Position numbers and translations under genes: made by a program. From Candidatus Omnitrophota bacterium (GTDB lineage: Bacteria > Omnitrophota > Gorgyraeia > 2-02-FULL-51-18 > JAGOUK01): 10,760 nt of DNA. The notes under the pieces were generated by a model that did not search any database, was not told the DNA's origin, and saw only the letters and a list, made by a program, of their open reading frames with translations. The stretch is from assembly GCA_020058965.1 (NCBI GenBank), contig JAGVCY010000282.1, forward strand, positions 1-10,760. The letters run 5' to 3'. Of this stretch, positions 1-10,760 are shown in pieces. Position 1 is the stretch's first letter; the number at the start of each line of letters is the position of its first letter.

Positions 1-3000
1 GTGCCGACAAATCGGCGGTCGCATTGATCACGGCCTTGAAGTCCGAAGGAAGCAGAATGCCATCTTTTGACGCCGTGAGTTCGATAAGAGTAAAATGCGT
101 CGCGCCCAACTGCTTGACGGTTTCCGAAACAAAACCGCTTAAATTTTCGTCACTCAAACTCGCCGGAGCAAAAAGCACATCGATTTTGCGGTTAAGTTCC
201 CGGCTAAGCGCCTGAACCTGAAATTTGATTTTCTGCATTTGATCGGACAATATTAAAAATTCCGCGGTCGCTTGCTTGGGCATCTGCACAATGATCAATC
301 CCTTGGACTCATCCGCCCGCACCGGCTGGCCCGAAGATTGACCCGCTTCCGACCTCTCCACCAACCGCGCACCCGGAGAAGGCACAATGACTATGTTCTG
401 CTCCGCTTTTTTATCAACTCCGGAAAAATCGCCAAATTGGCCCGAGCTACCCCATGTTATGGTTCCAGTGACCGATTTTGGTGTAAATTCGACTTCATAA
501 CCATTCTGTCTAGTCGCACCAGCCAACTGTTTTAAAACGGTTGCCCAATTTATCCCAGGGAATCTTACGCGGTTTGCTGAATATGAATCTTCCCAGCCAG
601 AACTTGGATGGTTCACATCATTTTCATACAGATCTCCGGATACTTTTTTAAGCTTCGCCAAAAACTCCGGCACGAGTCCAAGATACATGCCGACATCGTG
701 TTTACTGTTCGATATTTTCAAAATTTCCGTGACAATAAAATCTGCATCATCGGCTAAATCTTTCGGCAAAGCCGCTCTGATTTTTTCCACATCTTCGTCG
801 TGACCCACTAAATGAGTGCGCATGTTCGCGACATGCTGGGCGACGCGCTCTTCTTCGACCTGTCTCGCGGCTTCTTCTGCTTTTGATTTTATATGCGCTA
901 CAATCGTCCGGACAATCCCAACAAGCCCCGCCAGTCCAAGCGCCGCCAAGAACCAATGCTCCCGGACCCACTCAAACCCGCCGGCCAATCGAGCTCCATT
1001 TGGCAAAACAACTAGAACTGATCCCAGATTTCGAAGAGCTGGTATTTTTCCATTTGCTGGAACGGTAAGCACTTTCGTCAAGTTGCTTCCGGGTCTGCCT
1101 TCGGCTGTCTCGATTCTACCGCCGCGGTTACTGGCCACATCCATACTGGTTCCGGTCAGCAGCACACGATCAATCTCCATTGGCGGCACTGTTTGCGCGG
1201 CAGACTCTCCGGAAAACCCTTCTTTCAAGGTGCGCAGCGCAGCATCAAAATGAAACAGAGACGGGTCTGTTTCCGACCTCTCTCCTATGAGTTGAATAAT
1301 AACTACCTTGTGATCCGGCATAACAGATATGGCCGAGTAGGACTGCTGATGTTTCCCATTGAGAGCGGTTGGACTCCAACTGACCGAACCGCTGCCATTT
1401 ATGGCCGGGGCCTGTCCCAGAATCAGCTCGGAGACTAATCGTCCGGTACCTTTGGCCGCTTGGAGTTGCTGCACGATGCTATAGGGGTCGGTCACTTGGG
1501 GTCCGGTCAAATCGCCCGCTTTTGGCGCGCGGCGAATCAGCGGTCCGGTAAAGCCATTGGTGAGCGGCAAAACAGTATTTGATCCGTGCTTGGATTCATT
1601 CCTAACTTCTACTGAAATACCGTCCATTGTTTTGATCCAAAAAACTTTGCCGCCTTCCATTTTCATCATCCACTCTTCGACTAATTTTCCACCTACCCTG
1701 TCTTCGCCCGGCAGCCGCGTTAGCTCAAACTCAAATACTCCAAGTTTTTTTGGATCCAAATTGATTGCCCAGAAAGTTCCGCCGATCACCGCGGGGCGAT
1801 CCATGCTGTCGTTAAGCCCCGTCACATTTGATGGCTTCATGTACATTCTCGGGACCCCATCTCCGTGCGTTTCAAATGCCACTGAATTTTTATCAAGAAA
1901 CAGTCCTTGATCCGCATTGAAGAGTGCAACATCCGCGAGGTTGGTCCCTACTAGCTCTGTCAATTGCGCGGGCCATTGCGCAAGTGTAAATCCGGCGGGG
2001 TCGCCCGCGCGGACCTGAAGGCTATTCATAAGACGGGTGGCTTCATTGTGCCTGTGACGCATCTGCAGCTTCTTGAGATCTATCGTCCACACGCGTCCTT
2101 GGGCCAAAACTCCGGGCCCATCAACCTTGAATACACGTCGCTGAATACCTGTTTTTGGATTGGTTGTTTTGGGATTAACCCTCACATTGATCGGCTGCCC
2201 ATCAAAATATTCCGTGTGCGAAGGCCAGTCTTGCGCCGCCAACCGAGCGCCCTCTGTAGCTATAGAGCCTCCCCTTTCGATCGACAATTTCTGATGGCTT
2301 AAAATATCTTCATGTCTACCTTCTTCCGGTCTCGTAAATGCCGGGACGGCAGACCCGTCAATTGTCCAGCCATTTTGGAAATAATCATCCTCCATCCTGT
2401 CAATATCTTCTCTGGTAAGGACATAGCTTTGTATTGTCGTGGGGGCGTATATCACTTTATAACCATAACCTTGTTTCTTGTATTCGGATATCGTACCCAG
2501 CCAAGAAACCCAGTCGACCCCACCGAGATACACCTTCTTGGCAGTGTCATTATCTTTAAACCACAAACCTTGAGCCTCCGCCTTAATGGCTTCCAGTAAT
2601 TCAAATGCATTATTTAAGTTCGCCAATATCTGCTCACTTGAAGTGGATATATCCACAATACTGTTCACAATGCTATTGAGAACCGCAGCCATTTCCGAAT
2701 TTTCACGCACAAGTCCTTCGAGACGCTTATACGCCGATAGGTGATCACGCATCATGAACTTCCTCATGGGAGCCCGGCGTAATTCATGTTGTTCCTGCGC
2801 TTCCGCTCTCTTCCGATACTCATCTTCACGATGCAACTGCTCGGACGCCCGCCGCTCAGATTCAAGCCTTAATCGTGCCGAGTTCTTATGACGAGCATAG
2901 GCCGCCCACGCGAAGATTAGGAGCGGCGCGATTGCCCATTTGGCGATGGTCGCCCAAGTCTGGGCATCCGCCAAGCGGGCACCTTGAGATCGTGCATCAC

Positions 3001-6000
3001 TTGAACGATTCGCGTCTCCGGAATTTGCCGCGGAAATATTATCGGGAGTATTTGGTGTTGTTTTGTTCGCGATGCGCTTCACGCCGTCGATAGCCATGCT
3101 GATCACCCCAACAACCGCCCCGACGCCCACATTCACGAACATGATCGTTAGCATATTGCCGAAGAAGTCGAAGAAATAGGCGCTCGCCTTACGCGCAATA
3201 ACGCCGGGAAGATTGACCGGATGCAGCCATGAGCGATCCGGATTATTCAGCTTGTTGTCAGCGGCGGCGGATTTTCTGAAGTAATTGAAGTTGGCCTTTT
3301 TGATCTTCATGTCACGGATGACGAATCCCCACCAGGTTTGCCATTTTTGAGACCAGCTCTTGACGTAACCATCTCCGGGTTCGGTGTAGGCATTGCCGGG
3401 GGTCCATCCGTGATTATTGACCACCACGCCAATGACCCAGATAACACTGATCAACAGGAACGGCACCGCAAACACCAAGGCCCAGGCCTGCCACAAAAAT
3501 GAACCTACGATACCGATCGCTCCAACCACGCCTGAAATTGCAAACGGGAACTTGAACACCTGCAGCATATCGTGTGATGCGTCCTGATTGTCGATGCCCG
3601 GCTTACGAGGGCTCGCCGGGAAGAATGCCTTGCCCTTGAGGCCTTTAAAAACACCCATCGCAAAAATAACAGCCAGTGTTCCGTGATAAACGGCCTTGGC
3701 CGGGGTGGTGGCGATCCATATGAGCGTCCCTTGCATCAAACCGTGCCGCTCTGCCCGCCATGCCAATCCGCTGACCATAATGATCACTGACAGCACCAGT
3801 CCCGAAAGACCCAGCAGGAGGGGTAACGAAGCCGCAGCGAACGGGCTCAATCCCGCAAACACCACGATCACAATGAACGCAGGGATCATGACCGCCGTGA
3901 TGACATGCATGAAGAAGAAGGATAGGGACATGAGCATTACGAGCGATGTGAAGAAAGGCGCCTCAGCAAAGTAGCGCCTGAAAGACGGACTGAGCACCAA
4001 TTCCGCCGCGCTCATGCCGAATTTAAAGTAAGCGATCGTCTGCAATAGGAGGGTCTCGCCGCGGCTCTTGCCCATCCGCGTGATCTGAGCCAATTCACCG
4101 GTGAGTTTATTGCGCGTAAGCTCAACCGCCTGGATCAAGTCTTCCGCCACACGGAACTTGAACATCGACAGATTCGTCAAATGCGCATGAGCGATCGCAT
4201 AACCATGCCCGTAAATACCTAAGGCATTAGCCAACCATAAGAATACATATTTGACCGTTGTAAAGGTTTCGTCCGCGTCTGCCGCCGGCATTGCATACTT
4301 GCCATAATCCTTCGAGGTAATATATTCCCTAAATCCCATAAAACCATGGTTTTTGTTGCGCTTGTGCTGGGCGAGGTCTTCCAATAAGTGATCTGCCTGG
4401 CCCTGTTCGATGTCCATTGTGGCATCGATCATGACCATCATTTTATTCCGGGCGATGGTGAGCAAAACCTGGGCAAAACTGGACGGCTTACCCACCTGCA
4501 GGGCCGAACCCGCTAACTCGACCCGAACTTTTTCAGCTCCGAACGAATCGCCATGTTTTGTTTTGTAGACAACGGTTTTGCCTTGCGGATCGATCTTGCC
4601 TTCACGGGTGGACGCAATCATGAGCCACGGATATCTGGCCTGCATCATGCGGATCGCCTTGATCTCTGGATCGCCTTTCTTCGAATCATACTTATTAGGA
4701 TCCGAAGCATCATACTTACTCTTATCGATGGTCCCGTGTTTGGCATAATAAAGTACGTATTCCGACCTCGCGTCGACGATCTTTTCAAGGGCTTGTTTGT
4801 AATCCGATTCGCTCATGTCGGCGGGCTTGGAATAGCCGCTCATTCTCAGCTTCCAGACGTCCGAATTCCTCGTGCGGACCATGCCCATGATCGTGCGATA
4901 GATCACGAACCGCCGCATGTTGATCCAGTGTTCGACATACGTCGTGAAGGCCCGAAGCATTTGTGGCGACCAGCCATCGGGCATCGTGATAGGCCCATCA
5001 ATGTTGCGAATGGTCTCCAGGAACGCTTTGAACTTCATTCTTTCCTGATCGGTAAACGCGCCGAAGGTCTCCTGTTCGCGAAGTTCGTCTTGTAGGTACT
5101 TCCCGTCGGATTTAAGACTCATCAACGCCAAGGCATTGTTCCACTCCACCTGACCGTTCTTCTGCACATTCACGAGGTGCTGGATTAAGGTGTTACCCGT
5201 GTTGGTCTTTTTGTTCGCGTCTTCAAATGTGTCCATCAGAGATTCAAAAGCCGCCAGCGACATCATGGTTCTCTCGGGCACTTCGTCCCACGTAGCGGCT
5301 TCCCAATCCACGGAATGAAGTTGGATGGTTTTGAGCTTCAAAAACCAGATGGGTTCTTCCGACATGGGCTTTTGAGCAGCGAAGACATCATCCCGCTCCC
5401 AGATCGCCGCCTTCATCAGTTCAAATTCATCAGGGGATATCCGGCCATCGACCGCGTGTTGTAAGACGATGTATTCCAAGCGCCTCTTGGCTTCAGTCAG
5501 ACGCTCGGCCTTAGGCATGGTTGCCGGCACGGTCTTGGCTGCCATTTGAGACTCAAGACCGCCCTCACCTTGCAGAGCCGACCAGTCTTTGTCTTTTTGG
5601 CCGATTCCGTTAAATTTGCTGTTGCCCTGCATTGCCGAGATGAGAAACGATAGAATGCCCTCGCTCAAGAAAAGACTACTCATGATATCTACCGTCGTCA
5701 CGGCCTGAAGCACGATCCACATCAATCCGATAATGCCCACCGTGACCAAAACAGGCCAACCCAAAGCCGCCAACGCCGCTGAATAAATAAGGAAGTAATA
5801 GATCAATGCTGTGCTAAAAGCGATTTTAAAGATCGCCGTGAACAGCATATGGAAGCCGCTAAATTGGTTGCCTGATCTCTGTGCTGCTTTGAACGCCTCC
5901 GGGTCGCGGCCTTGCTCGTTGCCAGTCGGAAGTACGGATACTGTTTTTTGGGTGTTCTTAATCGAGATCGGTCTCATGATTGCAGCGGCTAGGATGATCA

Positions 6001-9000
6001 CGGCAACGATTCCGGCCGCCATCAATGTAAATGGAGCCGCCAGTCCGAGCGCCAAAGCCGACCCTATGACCCAAGGCAATCCGAACGCCACCGCAAAGAA
6101 CAGCATCAGGGGACTTATGTTGCGCATGAAGGTTAGAACACCCTTGTACGCCATGAACCCGCCCTGCTTTTCGGGATCGATCTTGGTGAACATGGATTTT
6201 TGACTGACCCAGTTAAGGTACTTCTCATAATCCCTGGCTTCACGGGTCTTCTTGAGCTGGCTCATGATTTCCGCCTTAGCGACCGCTACTGGCTGCACAG
6301 ATTCCTGACTGAAGAAAAGAACATTGAAGAATTCGGCGATGGGCCACACAAAACGCCTGACAGAAAGACTCCGTGGACTCTTCAGTGACGGAACCGCCTC
6401 CAATACCCGTCTGTTATAACGGCCTATTTCATTAGGATCTCCAGTGACCAGGATCGGAGAAGTTTTGATCTTCTCCTTCAGATCATCCGAAACGGATTTT
6501 AGCGGTTGATCTAGAATGGTCTTTCCGAGAATCTGCTCCCGGAATTCTTTTTTGGCCAGGGCTTCATTGATCTTATCGATCAAATCCGAGGCCTCTTTGT
6601 CGCGGTCGAACGCGCCCTGATCGGGGCCCAAAGCAGGCAGCGCAACACCCAGATCCAGGAGCGACTGATAAAATTTACGGACATCCTCCAAGCTCGCAAA
6701 CTCGTGAGAATCAAATTTGGACGGACCATAAATAAAAGTGGTTACAAGACGTCCTAACTTGCTATTGCGGATGCCGACCGCGATTTTTTTGAAAAATCCG
6801 GGGTTCGCCTTCTTAGCGGCGGCCACGGCTTCAGCGCTGGCCTTGGCTTTGGCTTCGGCCTGAGCTCTCAAACTTTTCGGACTTCCAAGCGTCGGGATCG
6901 CCTCGATCACGCGTCTGCTGTAGCGTCTGACTTCGATGGGATCTTCGGTGAAAGGAAGAGGCGAGGCCTCCAGGGCTGCCGTCAAGACCGTCTTTAGTTC
7001 CTTCAAACGCTTCTTTAACTCGGCAAGCGAGTCTTCGTCCGACACAACTTTATTAACGCCGTCGATCATCGATGTTTCCGGCGCATCCGGCATCAGGCCG
7101 GACATCGCAAAACCTAGAGCAGAAATCAATCGGTGCATCCGGCCGATCACCTTGGGATCGGACGCCGCCGTGACCCCAAAGCCGGTCGCGGCCTGCCCGC
7201 CAATCACCTTCTCAAGCTCGGCAAAATCACCTTTAAGCTCGGCGATAAACTCTTTTTTACCCAACGCCCCATTGATGGCCTTGAGCATATCGTCGGCCGT
7301 TGTAGATGGGGTCGTTGTGGGCAGCGCAAAACCTGCGGCACGCATCCGCTCATAGAACCGCACGATCTCTTCCGGAGCGGCAAACTCATCCGGTCCGAAC
7401 CTGGACTCGGCCACAGCCGCGGCATCCGACTTGGGACTCTTCGGACAATCTATCGGAAGGAGCGTTTCTAATACCCGTCTGTTGTATTGCTTCACTTCTA
7501 TCGGATTCTCTGAGGGCTTGGGCAGAGCGTCAACCGCCGCAGTCTGCGCGGCCGAAAGATTCATTAACTGTGCGCGAAATTCTTTTTTGGACAAGGCTTC
7601 GTTGAGGTCGACGATCAGCTGCAAGGCCTCCTTGTCGCGTTCCACCGCATCCTGTCCTTTTTGGGCGGGAGCCATTGCCGGCAAATTGACACCAAGGTCC
7701 CGTATCGACTGATAGAACCGCCGAATACCTTCGAGATCCGAGAATTCATCAACGGCAAATCCGGTCCTGGCCTTAAATTCAGCCCTCGCACGCCGCTCCG
7801 CCTTTCCGGCGGTCCATCCCCTCGCTTCTTCTTCGCGAACCTTTTCGGCAAGCGTTTTGGTCGTTCGAAGTATCTTGACGGCCTCGTCGTTGAATCCCGT
7901 GGGCCATCCGGAAGGACCCTGCGTTGCTTTGCTCAGATCAAAGTCGGACCGGATCAGTGACCTCACGCGGCTCAAGTCCTGGAACCAGGCGGTCAAATCA
8001 TCATCGTAGGTCGGGTGATTCTCTCGTGTGATGAGAAGTTTTTTGACATTCGGGTTGTCGTACTCGATAAAGAGGCGGAAGAGCTCTTCAATAAATTGTA
8101 CCCGGGCCTGATAGACGCCTCCGATCTTCTTGAGTTGATCAAGGTTGCTCGTGCCCTTGTAGCGGCGGGTGTGGATCATCGCCTGCGTCAGCCACTCCAT
8201 GCGCATCGGCGGCGAGTACGCGCCAAGAAGATTGCTCGAGTTCACGAAGATCAAGCTGTCGAGCATGACATCCTCAAGCGTCACGGTCTTCAGATCCACA
8301 TCTTTGGGATCGTACTGAGAGTCGCCTTTAAAGAGCTGTTCCCGATGGACGGTCAAAAAGTGATGTAGAGGCGAGCCCACATCGTTCAGGAGAGGGCTAT
8401 CGCTGCCATTGATGAACGCGTTGAATTTATTGAACTCAGGGTTCGCCTCGTCCGTGACCTGATCGAACAACGCGTCGACCGAAGTCGCGATATTGTTTTT
8501 TTCTTTATAGCTCGTCAGCAACACCCGGATGTAATCCGCGTTCAAACCGGCAGAAGCTGTGGCATTATTTGTGTTGAACCCGTAGTTGCCCTTTTTCTTC
8601 AGGTAGCCGTCGATCTTCGTACCTAATTTATCGTTTAACTCCACATTCTGGAGCGCTTGACGGACAACCGCCATACGAGCGCCTGCCGGACCTTCCTGCT
8701 TGGGCTCAACCGTCGTCGGCGCTACAGACGCCACGGCTTTGGAGGTGGTGGACGGAAGGCCCTTTCTGGCAGCAGCTAACTTCTTATTAATAAACGCATA
8801 GCCGATCGCAAACACCACTCCCACGAGTCCAACTATGGCCGCAACAAAACCAAGTAGGATTATCGGCATATCGCGGAAATAAGTCGCAAACGGCACGCTG
8901 TCGGGTTGGGATCTTCCATCCTGATTGATTCGGGTGACATCCACGAAGACATCCGTGGCTGGGTTTTCGCGATGGACCACTGATTCAGTGATCTGAGATT

Positions 9001-10760
9001 TTCCGGAAGGAGTGTCCTTGATACTATAGACCGTGCTCAGATGTTCGCTAATCTTGGTCCATTGTGCACCTTTTAATCTAATGTTAGGCCTATCCTTAGC
9101 CAAGCTTTCTACCGGGAACATTCCCTTGGCGGCTTTTTGGGTGTCGTACAGCACCCATTCGCTGAAGTCTTTTTTGCTTTCCGGGTCGTAACCATTTTTG
9201 AGTATCCCTTTGCCATAAACCGCACCGTTTGCGATCGCAACAAACACCCGCTCATAGACCTCGACGATCGGAAACCCTTCCCCGGAAAGGATCACATTGC
9301 GTTTCGTGTGCGTGGATTCTTGAGTCGACGGACGCACTGAATACAGGTATCCGAGTGAATATCCTTCCTTTTTGTATTGCTCGATTTCCGCGTAAGACGG
9401 GTGATGGTTTAAATAACGGTTATTTTTGACATCCACCACGCTCCCGTTGGTCCGAGAAAGCGTTTTGTAAAGCACCGGGCGTTCATATTCAATTTTTTCG
9501 AGAATCGTTTTACCGTCTCCATTGTCGGATACGGCGTAATAAGCTCCCGGCATAGCTCCGAACGGAATGCTGGAGGGCTTATACTGAAGTGCGTCATAGA
9601 TATTGCCTGTTTCCGATGTCGGCATTTCGACGTTACGATTTGCGGAAATGGTGCTATCTTCCCACCAGCGGTCCCACATCATGTCACCGCTCTGCATGTC
9701 GGAGCTTAGGTACTTAATTGCAAGAGTGTCGCCGGCCGGAGACCCGGGTCGCAGAAAGATTTTATTAAAGCGCCGGCCGCTGGTGTCACGAATGCTTTCG
9801 GCGTCATCGCCTTTCCCCACCTTGAACGCGGGGATCTCGATCATAACTTCAATATCTGTGTTCCCGGTGATCCCAAGCTCAACCCTAGCTTTCTCAAGAT
9901 AACCGGCCGCAATTTCCCTGAACTCTTTGGTCTTATTTGGAAATGCGCTGATGATCTCGTCAAATTTAACCTTCCCCGCGCTGCGATACTCCGCCAAAAG
10001 CTTGATTCTTGCATCAAGCTTGAAACTCTGTACCGGGCTTCCTTGATTATTCCAGTCGACCGAAACGATCCAATTACCAAAAACATTAGAGAGAATATTG
10101 CGGCCCAATGGATCGCCCGGCATTCTATAGTGCGTCCAGCTCAATCCATTTGTGACATTGATGGTGGTTGCGGGCTGCAGTAGCAATTGTTCATTATCTA
10201 TGCCCGCAGCCTCCATATCCGCATGAACATAATCAGGCAAAGAATTCCAATTGGAAGATCCGCCCATTGCTTGTGCAGCGGTCTGCTTTGAGCCAAAGGT
10301 GGTGATCCAGCGAAGATTATCCTTTGCCATGAGATGAGCATTATTCACATCATTCGTTACGGGCTTCTTATCCACAAATAGTTTAGAGATCGTAGCAACG
10401 TCATAACCATCGCGGAAGCTTTGATCAGCGTTAAACTCGGTAACTTCACCGTATTTGACATTGGCACCAGCGTCAATCCAGACCTTGGTGCGGCTTTCGA
10501 GGGTTTGGTCGAGGTCCACGATGCGGACCTCACGGATGATTGGTGCGTCCTTGGTGCCAAGAGCGGCTCCTTTGACCGGAACGTCCGTGAAGATCACGCG
10601 GGCGCGGTCGTCTTTGTAGATCGCGTGGGTGGGGTCATCTTTGCTGGGATCAACAAATTCACGTCTGATATCTGCGATTTTTTGGTCTGGCGTGCCGTCA
10701 GCGGTGACGCTGTACTTCTCGATGGGCTGCTTGAGGTTAAGATCTCGTTGGGAAGCAGGA
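1..10760 (-). CDS. Giant membrane protein with GT48-like glucan synthase core (internal fragment, both ends open)
   Basis: One minus-strand frame is open across the whole window: 3,586 codons without TAA, TAG or TGA, entering from beyond position 10760 and leaving beyond position 1. The other frames are broken throughout; the longest alternative is about 180 codons. The translation reads as ordinary protein, with discrete hydrophobic segments, charged helices, beta-rich stretches and recognisable family motifs in order. The architecture is ectodomain, anchor, FKS1_dom1-like domain, helical repeats, membrane bundle, GT48-like catalytic domain, membrane bundle, then two further anchor-plus-ectodomain modules. 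Because no stop interrupts it, I treat it as one gene and not as an operon. TGA is absent in frame, so the standard bacterial code fits. Start site, promoter and terminator lie outside the window. True length is unknown but exceeds 3,586 residues. The likely role is synthesis or export of a beta-glucan-like polymer (inferred). Confidence 0.95.
2..739 (-). other. C-proximal module, start of a further repeat (residues 3341-3586, right end open)
   Basis: The stretch contains a helical part, then GINW (3402-3405) and NGYEVEFTP (3419-3427), matching GVDW...GYGYKVIYAP in the preceding module. The distance from GARLA to the GxxW motif is 147 residues here and 154 there. After a short strand region and a Ser/Gly/Glu-rich linker (about 3447-3486), the sequence turns into alternating strands and helices (LIIVQM, IDVLFAPA, ATHFTLIEL), suggesting a small alpha/beta domain that continues beyond the window. 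I cannot name it. Confidence 0.55.
740..997 (-). other. GARLA motif, membrane segment and charged coil, copy 2 (residues 3255-3340)
   Basis: GARLA (3255-3259) is followed by EWVREHW, a hydrophobic helix (about 3269-3287, FLAALGLAGLVGIVRTIV) and a charged helix HIKSKAEEAARQVEEERV (3289-3306). MRTHLVGH (3313-3320) then parallels MRDHLSAY of the first copy. The order and spacing match copy 1, so a tandem duplication of an anchor-plus-coil unit is likely. Confidence 0.7.
962..2581 (-). other. Second beta-rich domain (residues 2727-3266)
   Basis: This is a large region without membrane segments, starting with a GVDW...EYKKQGY motif (2747-2765) and continuing as strands rich in aromatic, Gly and Asp residues. 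FNADQ (2947-2951), a YMKP strand (2973-2976) and GTFWAINLD (2994-3002) resemble, in the same order, FNADQ, YRMP and GNWIVSVD in the N-proximal ectodomain, although the first has 71 more residues between the outer two motifs. A second GARLA occurs at 2837-2841. The C-terminal part is strand-rich and ends in SVLVVLPNGARLAGG, immediately before the next membrane segment. I recognise no named family. Its likeness to the first ectodomain argues for an extracytoplasmic position, but the flanking segments do not clearly give that topology. Confidence 0.55.
2690..2983 (-). other. GARLA motif, membrane segment and charged coil, copy 1 (residues 2593-2690)
   Basis: GARLA (2593-2597) precedes a short hydrophobic helix (about 2606-2621, WAIAPLLIFAWAAYA), then RHKN and a long charged helix with SERRASEQLHRED and EYRKRAEAQEQHELRR (2634-2662), probably a coiled coil. 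MRDHLSAY (2670-2677) follows. The order GARLA, hydrophobic helix, charged coil, MR-x-HL recurs at 3255-3316. The positive flank after the helix suggests that the coil is cytoplasmic. Confidence 0.7.
3065..3961 (-). other. Second membrane bundle and Trp-rich tail of GT48-like unit (residues 2267-2565)
   Basis: Hydrophobic helices lie at about 2268-2288, 2289-2305, 2307-2333, 2347-2370, 2405-2423 and 2427-2446. Between them TTPAKAVYHGTL (2351-2362) and a basic FKGLKGKAFF loop (2371-2380) sit where callose synthases have a GTKTHYYGRTLLHGGAKY-like helix and GRGF loop. After the last helix, VNNHGW (2447-2452) corresponds to the family FNPSGFEW region. The Trp-rich KSWSQKWQTWWGF (2467-2479) parallels the W-rich cytosolic stretch of the plant enzymes. 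Another hydrophobic segment, YFFDFFGN...VISMAI (2528-2556), closes the unit, followed by a Thr/Asn/Ser/Asp-rich linker (2567-2590). The second half of this region is a weaker match than the catalytic domain. Confidence 0.75.
3962..5392 (-). other. GT48-like 1,3-beta-glucan synthase catalytic domain (residues about 1790-2266)
   Basis: GT48 enzymes use UDP-glucose to build 1,3-beta-glucan at the cytosolic face of the membrane. The family's landmark motifs appear here in the right order: VEWNN (1871-1875); RTIMGM (1955-1960), family RTVRGM; GDP...RYP (2029-2031, 2042-2044); VGKP (2089-2092), family EGKP; MIDATMD (2110-2116), family IDMNQD; GFREYI (2142-2147), family GxREHI; ETFTT (2164-2168); LANALGIYGH (2176-2185), family LANPL...HYGH; HLT (2193-2195); AED (2205-2207), family SED; MGKSR (2229-2233), family VGKGRD; AELVLS (2252-2257), family GEQxLS. 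Hydrophobic helices start at about 2268, as in callose synthases. RGG, NQNH and part of NQDN are missing or altered, so activity is uncertain. The comparison rests on remembered family motifs. Confidence 0.85.
5642..6121 (-). other. First membrane bundle of GT48-like unit (residues 1547-1706)
   Basis: Roughly four to five hydrophobic helices are visible: about 1551-1570, 1571-1596, 1638-1666 and 1667-1686, with an amphipathic segment near 1690-1706. A short hydrophilic loop lies at 1597-1636. The segment FHMLFTAIFKIAFSTALIYY (1636-1655) parallels the family pattern in which a Lys-Ala/Leu-Phe-Ser-Tyr helix precedes the callose synthase catalytic domain. GIIGLMWIVLQ (1675-1685), followed by VDIMSSLF...GILSFL (1690-1706), parallels the next two family helices. 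The bundle appears smaller than in eukaryotic enzymes. In this family the bundles frame a channel for the growing glucan; whether that holds here is inferred. Confidence 0.8.
6362..6721 (-). repeat. Repeat unit D (residues 1347-1466)
   Basis: This last and well-conserved unit has FDSHEF (1349-1354), RKFYQS (1361-1366), LGVALP (1370-1375), INEALAKKEF (1397-1406), RYNRRVLE (1447-1454) and SPRS (1461-1464). It is directly followed by the RRFVW...FF hydrophobic stretch that leads to the first membrane bundle. Confidence 0.8.
6866..7159 (-). repeat. Degenerate repeat unit C (residues 1201-1298)
   Basis: The unit begins with GRMHRLISALGF (1206-1217 region), which partly resembles both the terminal NRRVLE motif and the FY-LG helix of the other units. 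A charged helix ELKKRLKELK (1247-1256) follows where NEAL-KKEF would be. It ends with a good terminal motif, EVRRYSRRVIE (1276-1286), and GSPKS. It accounts for the extra spacing in the middle of the array. It is followed by an Ala/Lys-rich helix (1299-1325). Confidence 0.5.
7160..7402 (-). repeat. Repeat unit B (residues 1120-1200)
   Basis: This unit has FGPDEF (1121-1126), VRFYER (1133-1138), FALP (1144-1147) and GALGKKEF (1164-1171). It lacks a good terminal YNRR motif and runs directly into unit C. A Thr/Pro/Ser-rich loop (TTTPSTT, 1148-1154) replaces the Ala/Pro/Gln stretch of unit A. Confidence 0.65.
7424..7759 (-). repeat. Repeat unit A (residues 1001-1112)
   Basis: This is the first unit of the array. 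It contains VDEF (1003-1006), RRFYQS (1013-1018), LGVNLP (1022-1027), NEALSKKEF (1053-1061), QYNRRVLE (1091-1098) and KSPKS (1107-1111). It is the closest match to unit D, both in protein and in DNA. Confidence 0.8.
7760..7924 (-). other. Charged helical connector (residues 946-1000)
   Basis: A linker of about 55 residues joins the FKS1_dom1-like domain to the repeat array. The first part is Gly/Pro/Trp-containing (QGPSGWPTGF). The rest is strongly charged helix with EEEARG and AERRARAEFKAR, probably a short coiled coil. No domain is recognised. Confidence 0.6.
7925..8554 (-). other. FKS1_dom1-like cytoplasmic domain (residues about 736-945)
   Basis: FKS1_dom1 is the conserved N-terminal cytosolic domain of eukaryotic 1,3-beta-glucan and callose synthases, lying before the first membrane bundle. 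Here, as in that domain, a helix with FNKFNAFING (777-786) precedes an IFVNSSNLLGAYSP segment (837-850). That segment sits where the family has a YLLIWGEAANLRFMPE-like motif. A helical segment with FIEELFRLFIEY (889-900) then sits where the family has its 'VVTPIY' helix, and YDDDLTAWF (918-926) matches the family YDDLNEYFW motif. The WGEA signature itself is not conserved, so no single motif is decisive. The collinear order, and its position upstream of a GT48-like core in the same chain, make the match credible. The comparison is from memory of the family, not a computed alignment. The domain could otherwise be an unrelated helical domain. Confidence 0.6.
8789..8869 (-). other. Single transmembrane anchor (residues 631-657)
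   Basis: About 27 residues are almost entirely Ile, Leu, Val, Ala, Gly and Phe, then come INKKLAAARK, a typical positive-inside flank. The segment places residues 1-626 outside and the following 800 or so residues in the cytoplasm, which agrees with the cytosolic location of FKS1_dom1-type domains. It is followed by a Thr/Ser/Pro/Val-rich linker (667-690) that looks disordered. Confidence 0.85.
8882..10760 (-). other. N-proximal beta-rich ectodomain (residues 1-626, left end open)
   Basis: This part of the giant protein has no hydrophobic segment long enough to span a membrane. It is rich in alternating hydrophobic/polar strands, Asn, Gly and aromatic residues, as in secreted beta-sandwich or polysaccharide-handling regions. 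It ends at a membrane anchor followed by Lys/Arg, so it probably lies outside the cytoplasm. FNADQ at 109-113, YRMP at 211-214, and a GNW...VD strand at 228-235 recur in similar order in the ectodomain near 2947-3002, which suggests the two are paralogous. A second motif, QYKKEGY (461-467), resembles EYKKQGY at 2759-2765. A helical stretch (about 247-300) separates two beta-rich parts. I recognise no named domain. Carbohydrate binding is a guess from the neighbouring synthase, not seen in any motif. Confidence 0.6.

Follow-up and report, generated by a model that had tools for sequence, protein, structure and literature searches.

A divergent GT48-like synthase domain in a giant open reading frame of an Omnitrophota bacterium

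Results

A predicted membrane glycosyltransferase lies within a giant frame

We analyzed a contig of 10,760 bases from a Candidatus Omnitrophota genome (JAGVCY010000282.1, G000:C283 in our numbering; hereafter the window), which is a complete contig of a fragmented assembly (307 contigs, 72% complete). It consists of a single open frame on the minus strand (2..10759), a piece of a giant protein with 3,586 codons and no stop. Both ends of this frame are open, so the gene extends beyond the window. Within it lies a predicted GT-A glycosyltransferase domain that resembles GT48, the family of the yeast glucan synthases Fks1 and Fks2 (residues 1735–2256; 3992..5557, minus strand, as for all features below), recognized from profiles, an AlphaFold2 model and structure matches. 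Hydropathy, the model and a structure alignment starting at Fks residue 444 delimit a first membrane bundle ahead of this domain (residues 1541–1710; 5630..6139), which is placed on the Fks helices preceding the glycosyltransferase domain. A second bundle, predicted by the same approaches to be part of a glucan channel, follows (residues 2264–2557; 3089..3970). The two membrane bundles proposed in an earlier note made from the sequence alone, which placed a GT48-type core at 3065–6142, agree with the hydropathy.

The same note had reported at least twelve landmark motifs of the eukaryotic callose/FKS synthases in the correct order. All twelve are present as stated, starting at residues 1871 (VEWNN), 1955 (RTIMGM), 2029 (GDP..RYP), 2090 (GKP), 2111 (IDATMD), 2142 (GFREYI), 2164 (ETF), 2176 (LANALGIYGH), 2193 (HLT), 2205 (AED), 2230 (GKSR) and 2253 (ELVLS). 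Pfam matched no family convincingly in the whole frame of 3,586 residues, including FKS1_dom1 (PF14288) in this upstream-open frame, the NCBIfam scan gave no significant match, and a tRNA search of the window found none. As a direct database query the core returned no match; its relatives were reached via genomes of the same class.

Profiles and predicted structure rank GT48 first

A search with the core detected matches in 10 of 99 genomes, one of which is the genome of the window itself; the remaining nine matched at E 3.1e-23 to 5.4e-5, and the frames have 1,993–21,496 codons. Run against the PDB, a profile of these ten matched Fks1 and Gsc2 (Fks2) with E 4e-69, followed by cellulose synthases (5e-6). 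Eight of the ten also match the Pfam family PF02364 at E<=1 (best 6.6e-75), and the window is outside these eight. For a non-circular comparison, we used two profiles from which the window and the subgroup with which it groups in trees (see below) were left out. The window frame scored 139.5 bits with the first, built from 12 strong Omnitrophota GT48 proteins, for which 500 shuffles reached at most 4.3 bits and 500 block shuffles at most 3.5 (scores listed at E<=1000 only, that is, for 238 shuffles and 363 block shuffles). With the second, of 52 canonical bacterial and eukaryotic rows, it scored 180.1 bits; the top shuffle or block shuffle across both profiles was 6.3. Profile-profile comparison with a eukaryotic GT48 profile (seven land-plant-type sequences and one fungal) gave E 2.7e-45 across 694 columns for the window-like subgroup and E 3e-105 for the canonical bacterial set; this family includes the plant and stramenopile callose synthases.

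The AlphaFold2 model of the core had yeast Fks1/Fks2 (Gsc2; PDB 9wy1, 9wzs, 8jzn and others) as its top structure match; a superposition on yeast FKS1 had been suggested in the earlier note. Model residues 1–1026 were placed on Fks 444–1770 with about 15% identity. Among the fold families listed in that comparison, most Fks structures ranked above BcsA and CesA. The core is predicted to have the Fks fold, in which a GT-A domain sits between two bundles of several membrane helices each. Like Fks1/Fks2, it has the same motif order; it differs in the low identity, in the missing Pfam match to FKS1_dom1 and in sitting in a far longer frame. With BcsA and the GT2 synthases it has in common a GT-A core, channel-type membrane helices, the D of DxD, and ED.

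Most active-site residues are kept

According to a review of Fks structure, Y849, E851, K1082 and N1085 of Fks1 are associated with UDP-glucose, the DAN motif is D1102-A-N1104, and E1221-D1222 are essential (PMC12715860). We aligned 63 rows (11 window-like, 33 other bacterial and 19 eukaryotic). Three of the bacterial rows duplicate others (G041/P0024, L045/P0025 and L068/L101), so the counts lean slightly on copies. The counterpart of K1082, Lys 2091 (4487..4489), is a lysine in all 63 rows, whichever of the three groups they belong to. The DAN counterpart is Asp 2112-Ala-Thr (4418..4426), with the aspartate in all 63 rows and the third place occupied by N in 42 of 44 bacterial and 19 of 19 eukaryotic rows. 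The counterpart of the catalytic ED, Glu 2206-Asp 2207 (4139..4144), has D in 63 and E in 62 of the 63 rows. The GKGR counterpart, GKSR (residues 2230–2233; 4061..4072), keeps K in 62 and R in 61. The histidine of the YGH motif (residues 2183–2185; 4205..4213) occurs in every row, a conservation that is partly by construction, as rows were cut at YGH and two rows without it were dropped. The counterpart of E851 is also kept in the window. The GT2 motif QxxRW after ED is missing: the window has LLLQTIAYFKFGMS, versus FKQQFRWAMG in the GT2 rows L081 and L082.

At Y849, N1085 and N1104, the window has A, S and T, respectively. Of the 33 other bacterial rows, all 33 have N1104, 25 have N1085 and 5 have Y849 (4 gaps at this last position). 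Taken together, these residues suggest that the window domain is probably active, with donor and linkage less certain than for the canonical copies.

A bacterial branch of GT48 is spread among Omnitrophota

The earlier note had called the host probably bacterial. One record named as Candidatus Omnitrophota shares a stretch of 8,022 bases, identical in every letter, with a contig of G041, a genome of the window's class, so this class belongs to the phylum Omnitrophota. Among 384 genomes sampled from the class, 36 match PF02364 at E<=0.001, 32 of them above the Pfam cut-off (best 2.6e-80), whereas 14 prokaryotic control genomes gave no match. The match is free of stops in 34 of these 36 genomes and contains several in G297, where it is weak. 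The frames that carry a match in the class sample range from 1,448 to 42,913 codons, the longest having 42,913 (L049, in G154), 32,526 (L048, in G103) and then 23,462 codons, and the L049 and L048 matches are stop-free. By comparison, the eukaryotic proteins matched in the protein database are 1,395–1,948 residues long. In L055 (G100), one TAA lies within the GT48 match, which may be a sequencing error or mark a decaying copy.

A phylum sample of 384 genomes, overlapping the class sample, likewise gave 36 matches (32 above the cut-off, best 6.5e-89), three of them in genomes outside the window's class. Two strict peptide patterns, run over the genomes of named species, picked up 19 loci, and 17 of these are from Candidatus Omnitrophota (15 by title, and two via candidate genera placed there by the tree tool). 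The other two are L070, labelled Planctomycetales, which clusters with Omnitrophota rows in trees, and L079, labelled Verrucomicrobiaceae. The L079 match is divided between two frames and may be eukaryotic. In the protein database, 11 prokaryotic-type matches (P0001–P0011) rank ahead of 12 eukaryotic-type ones: seven are labelled Omnitrophota, one just 'bacterium' and one Njordarchaeales archaeon, and the other two carry no organism label. Six of the seven Omnitrophota proteins are annotated as hypothetical protein and one as phosphodiester glycosidase family protein. The Njordarchaeales entry (P0010) comes from a contig of 4 kb and could reflect misbinning. A prokaryotic branch, which the earlier note had offered as a possibility, is supported by the PF02364 scores and this distribution: at the sequence level, the GT48 family has a bacterial branch carried in giant proteins.

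Some relatives also match GT2

Single-sequence Pfam scans were run on the window, on eight relatives from its subgroup and on a broken copy. Two relatives exceeded the cut-offs of both PF02364 and the GT2 family PF13632: G095 (101.5 and 37.7 bits, respectively) and G083 (54.4 and 32.8 bits). G075 matched PF13632 (29.6 bits) and not GT48. G009, from the window's order, scored 24.0 bits with GT2 versus 13.2 with GT48, neither reaching the cut-off. L051, L054 and L058 had a good GT48 match and a weak or no GT2 match. For the window core and cuts of it, PF13632, PF13641 and PF00535 gave nothing at E<=10, in a HMMER search whose filters discard most matches above 0.1.

An in-house GT2 profile, run without filters, was built on three synthases encoded in genomes of the window's order. 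It gave 6.5–36.7 bits in 9 of 11 subgroup members, with the window at -0.8 and G009 at 0.4. The best of the 33 other bacterial copies reached 15.7 bits (median -0.4), a value exceeded by five subgroup members, and all 19 eukaryotic sequences stayed at or below -0.2. In profile-profile comparison with GT2, the subgroup reached E 1.2e-10 over 158 columns and the canonical set 8.5e-5. These scores make the bacterial family look like a sequence bridge from plain GT48 to GT2-like forms, with the window's own sequence belonging on the GT48 side.

Phylogeny

The earlier note had called for a phylogeny with eukaryotic GT48. The row set excludes three stray pieces, two sequences that lack YGH and 24 whose surroundings of YGH are the same as in another row. 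The ten eukaryotic sequences of an unrooted 50-row tree cluster together with support 100; this tree and the later ones leave out six short or partial rows. In a tree of 58 of the 63 rows, which leaves out the three longest branches and two rows of <=550 residues (P0030 gave no cut), the 19 eukaryotic rows, from a fungus, land plants, a green alga, oomycetes, and brown and yellow-green algae, again form one group. The eukaryotic rows are thus a separate single group in the trees. The window falls in an eight-row subgroup (support 95); its branch there is very long and joins a second long one, a situation about which the tree tool warns.

In trees rooted with GT2, which used 34 and 33 hand-picked rows of the 63 plus GT2, the window-like rows branch deepest and the eukaryotes lie inside the bacterial tree; bacteria came out monophyletic in 0% of the bootstrap trees of both runs (200 trees per run). 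The outgroup consists of three or two distant rows over 262 or 265 columns, and far outgroups attract long branches. In the approximately unbiased (AU) test, a single bacterial clade stays compatible (p 0.306), and support is weak for several of the inner branches. At most tentatively, the rooted trees may point to eukaryotic GT48 having a bacterial source.

Other features of the window and of related giants

A repeated module of about 110 residues lies upstream of the synthase (residues 1001–1108 and 1349–1464; 6368..7759), its two copies showing 43% identity (E 6e-24) in piece-against-piece BLAST, with a weaker third copy between them. It has no Pfam match. Self-BLAST of the whole frame printed no repeats, and the second of the two piece pairs compared gave nothing. 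Hydropathy also predicts a single membrane span at residues 625–663 (8771..8887) and a last one at about residues 3270–3288.

The window frame contains five copies of the motif GAR[LM], most of them GARLA (8672–8683, 2972–2983, 2240–2251, 986–997 and 362–373), versus a mean of 0.15 and a maximum of 3 in 2,000 shuffles. The copies at residues 693 and 2593 bracket the synthase. A frame of 9,108 codons from G007 (L024/L025), of the same order, carries an ARMT1-like phosphatase, a guanylate kinase, a NUDIX domain and then GT48, and has GARL 12 times (mean 0.54, maximum 3 in 300 shuffles). Its copies include 3305, 4004, 4492, 4928 and 5184, located before, between and after the enzyme domains. GAR[LM] occurs five times in G009 and three times in L085, and 0 or 1 time in seven frames of other families. 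At the DNA level, a GARLA pattern was not enriched in the whole genome (16 versus 22 in a reversed control); this is a poor test, as it covers CGN/CTN codons only and picks up none of the window's own copies. In these frames GAR[LM] often falls between recognizable domains and looks like an order-specific inter-domain signal, and the sites could be linkers or cutting sites. If they are cut, the piece from residue 693 to 2593 would have about 1,900 residues, close to the size of Fks1. One further G007 copy (6972) lies just behind the GT48 match and ahead of the second membrane bundle, a position that speaks against the cutting-site idea.

The G007 frame indicates that some giants string together ordinary enzymes. 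L085 (G005) is another giant frame from this order, with a MobA-like NTP transferase, GT2 and a sub-threshold CheR match. Inspection by eye of the frames around the G095 relative (in a 3,129-codon frame) recognized no polysaccharide operon. In the window's own genome, only sub-threshold matches to galU and no GH16 were found, absences that carry little weight because the genome is 72% complete.

Discussion

We propose, with a probability of about two in three, that the window carries a divergent GT48 homologue within an Omnitrophota giant frame, predicted to convert UDP-glucose into beta-glucan and to pass the product through its own membrane channel. The domain would take UDP-glucose at the cytosolic face and join the glucose units, pushing the growing chain through the channel. 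The linkage would be beta-1,3, less surely for the window's subgroup than for the canonical Omnitrophota copies. The giant protein would sit in the cell envelope and display the polymer outside, where it might belong to the coat or contact surface that others have proposed for these bacteria.

GT48 is known for making callose and laminarin (PMC3797821, PMC7965971) and as a target of echinocandins (PMC12715860). The statement of the earlier note that it is described as a eukaryotic family fits the open-access papers that we found, the available passages of which treat GT48 in eukaryotes only. Our search, which covered titles, abstract starts and passages of open-access papers but not the CAZy website, preprints or supplementary files, nor the bulk of the subscription literature, yielded no description of a bacterial GT48. 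Neither did the available parts of PMC10066038, PMC12057145, PMC12419801, PMC12715860, PMC11573180, PMC3797821, PMC7965971 and PMC8581802; in those of the last, the sole 'glucan synthase' is a cyclic beta-1,2-glucan synthase. Omnitrophota or Omnitrophica combined with glucan synthase returned no open-access paper. Omnitrophota giant proteins, such as the 39,678-residue protein of Velamenicoccus archaeovorus, are also giant uninterrupted frames with membrane spans and, in the passages available, few annotated domains, including adhesin types (PMC10066038); the word 'glucan' is absent from the main text of that paper. Polysaccharide biosynthesis enzymes are mentioned in gigantic Omnitrophota proteins, with no family named in the available passages (PMC12419801).

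Several results qualify our reading. The short motifs are weak proof by themselves because ETF,.ED and E..LS recur at other places in the core. In the HMMER comparison with PF02364 suggested by the earlier note, the window missed Pfam's own cut-off of 37.2 bits: a slice of 467 residues scored 15.6 bits (E 0.0046), the core of 1,026 residues 6.5 bits (E 2.7) and a cut of 710 residues 7 bits. The eight-sequence eukaryotic-only profile gave 6.8–11.3 bits, versus 5.8 for the top block shuffle, and the link of the window to GT48 therefore passes through bacterial intermediates. On these profiles, the window is a divergent GT48 homologue under the Pfam cut-off, by a transitive link. Another explanation is that the domain is a GT2-type synthase (cellulose-, hyaluronan- or OpgH-like) whose likeness to GT48 is a shared old fold and whose product would be a different polymer, for example a beta-1,4- or mixed glycan. 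The PF13632 matches of G095, G083, G075 and G009, the in-house GT2 scores of the subgroup, the three altered donor-site residues, and the lowest Fks structure, which ties with BcsA, all favor it. Yet the window scores -0.8 bits with the GT2 profile versus 132–143 with the GT48 profile, the GT48 likeness extends over 694 columns including the membrane parts as opposed to 158 for GT2, and BcsA and CesA rank below most Fks structures. A GT2-type synthase thus seems unlikely to us, though it is the most serious competitor.

Less probable still is a degenerate, inactive GT48-like domain kept as the membrane scaffold of a giant adhesin or polyprotein. The long branch and the same three substitutions would fit such a domain, as would the proposal, in the available parts of PMC10066038, that giant Omnitrophota proteins are adhesins or coats; the frame is nevertheless stop-free over 3,586 codons and keeps the counterparts of K1082, D1102, E1221 and D1222, the YGH histidine and GK.R. 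That eukaryotic DNA was binned with bacterial genomes is hardly credible. The L079 match is split across two frames, like an intron-bearing gene, but 34 of the 36 matching class genomes have a stop-free match, in frames of up to tens of thousands of codons, bacterial and eukaryotic rows lie on opposite sides of one branch with support 100, and the G007 domain shares its frame with a phosphatase, a guanylate kinase and a NUDIX domain. Returning to the GT48 homologue, which we prefer, its assignment by the earlier note to a GT48-type core agrees with GT48/Fks ranking first by both profile and fold. Neither a lack of GT48 matches nor a better match to another family, the outcomes named there as speaking against it, was found.

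The relatives G083 and G095, above both the PF02364 and GT2 cut-offs, provide sequence intermediates for a link that a review had based on a shared fold. Tentatively, and with the odds rather against it, the eukaryotic 1,3-beta-glucan synthases (fungal Fks, plant callose synthase and stramenopile laminarin synthase) might descend from a GT2-derived bacterial family that still lives, intermediates included, in Omnitrophota giant proteins, with the window in its deep, GT2-near part; transfer may also have run from eukaryotes to bacteria. A diverse bacterial branch makes the origin of eukaryotic glucan synthesis accessible to phylogeny. For the Omnitrophota themselves, whose giant proteins have been described with few annotated domains in the available text of PMC10066038, it offers a likely function for part of these giants.

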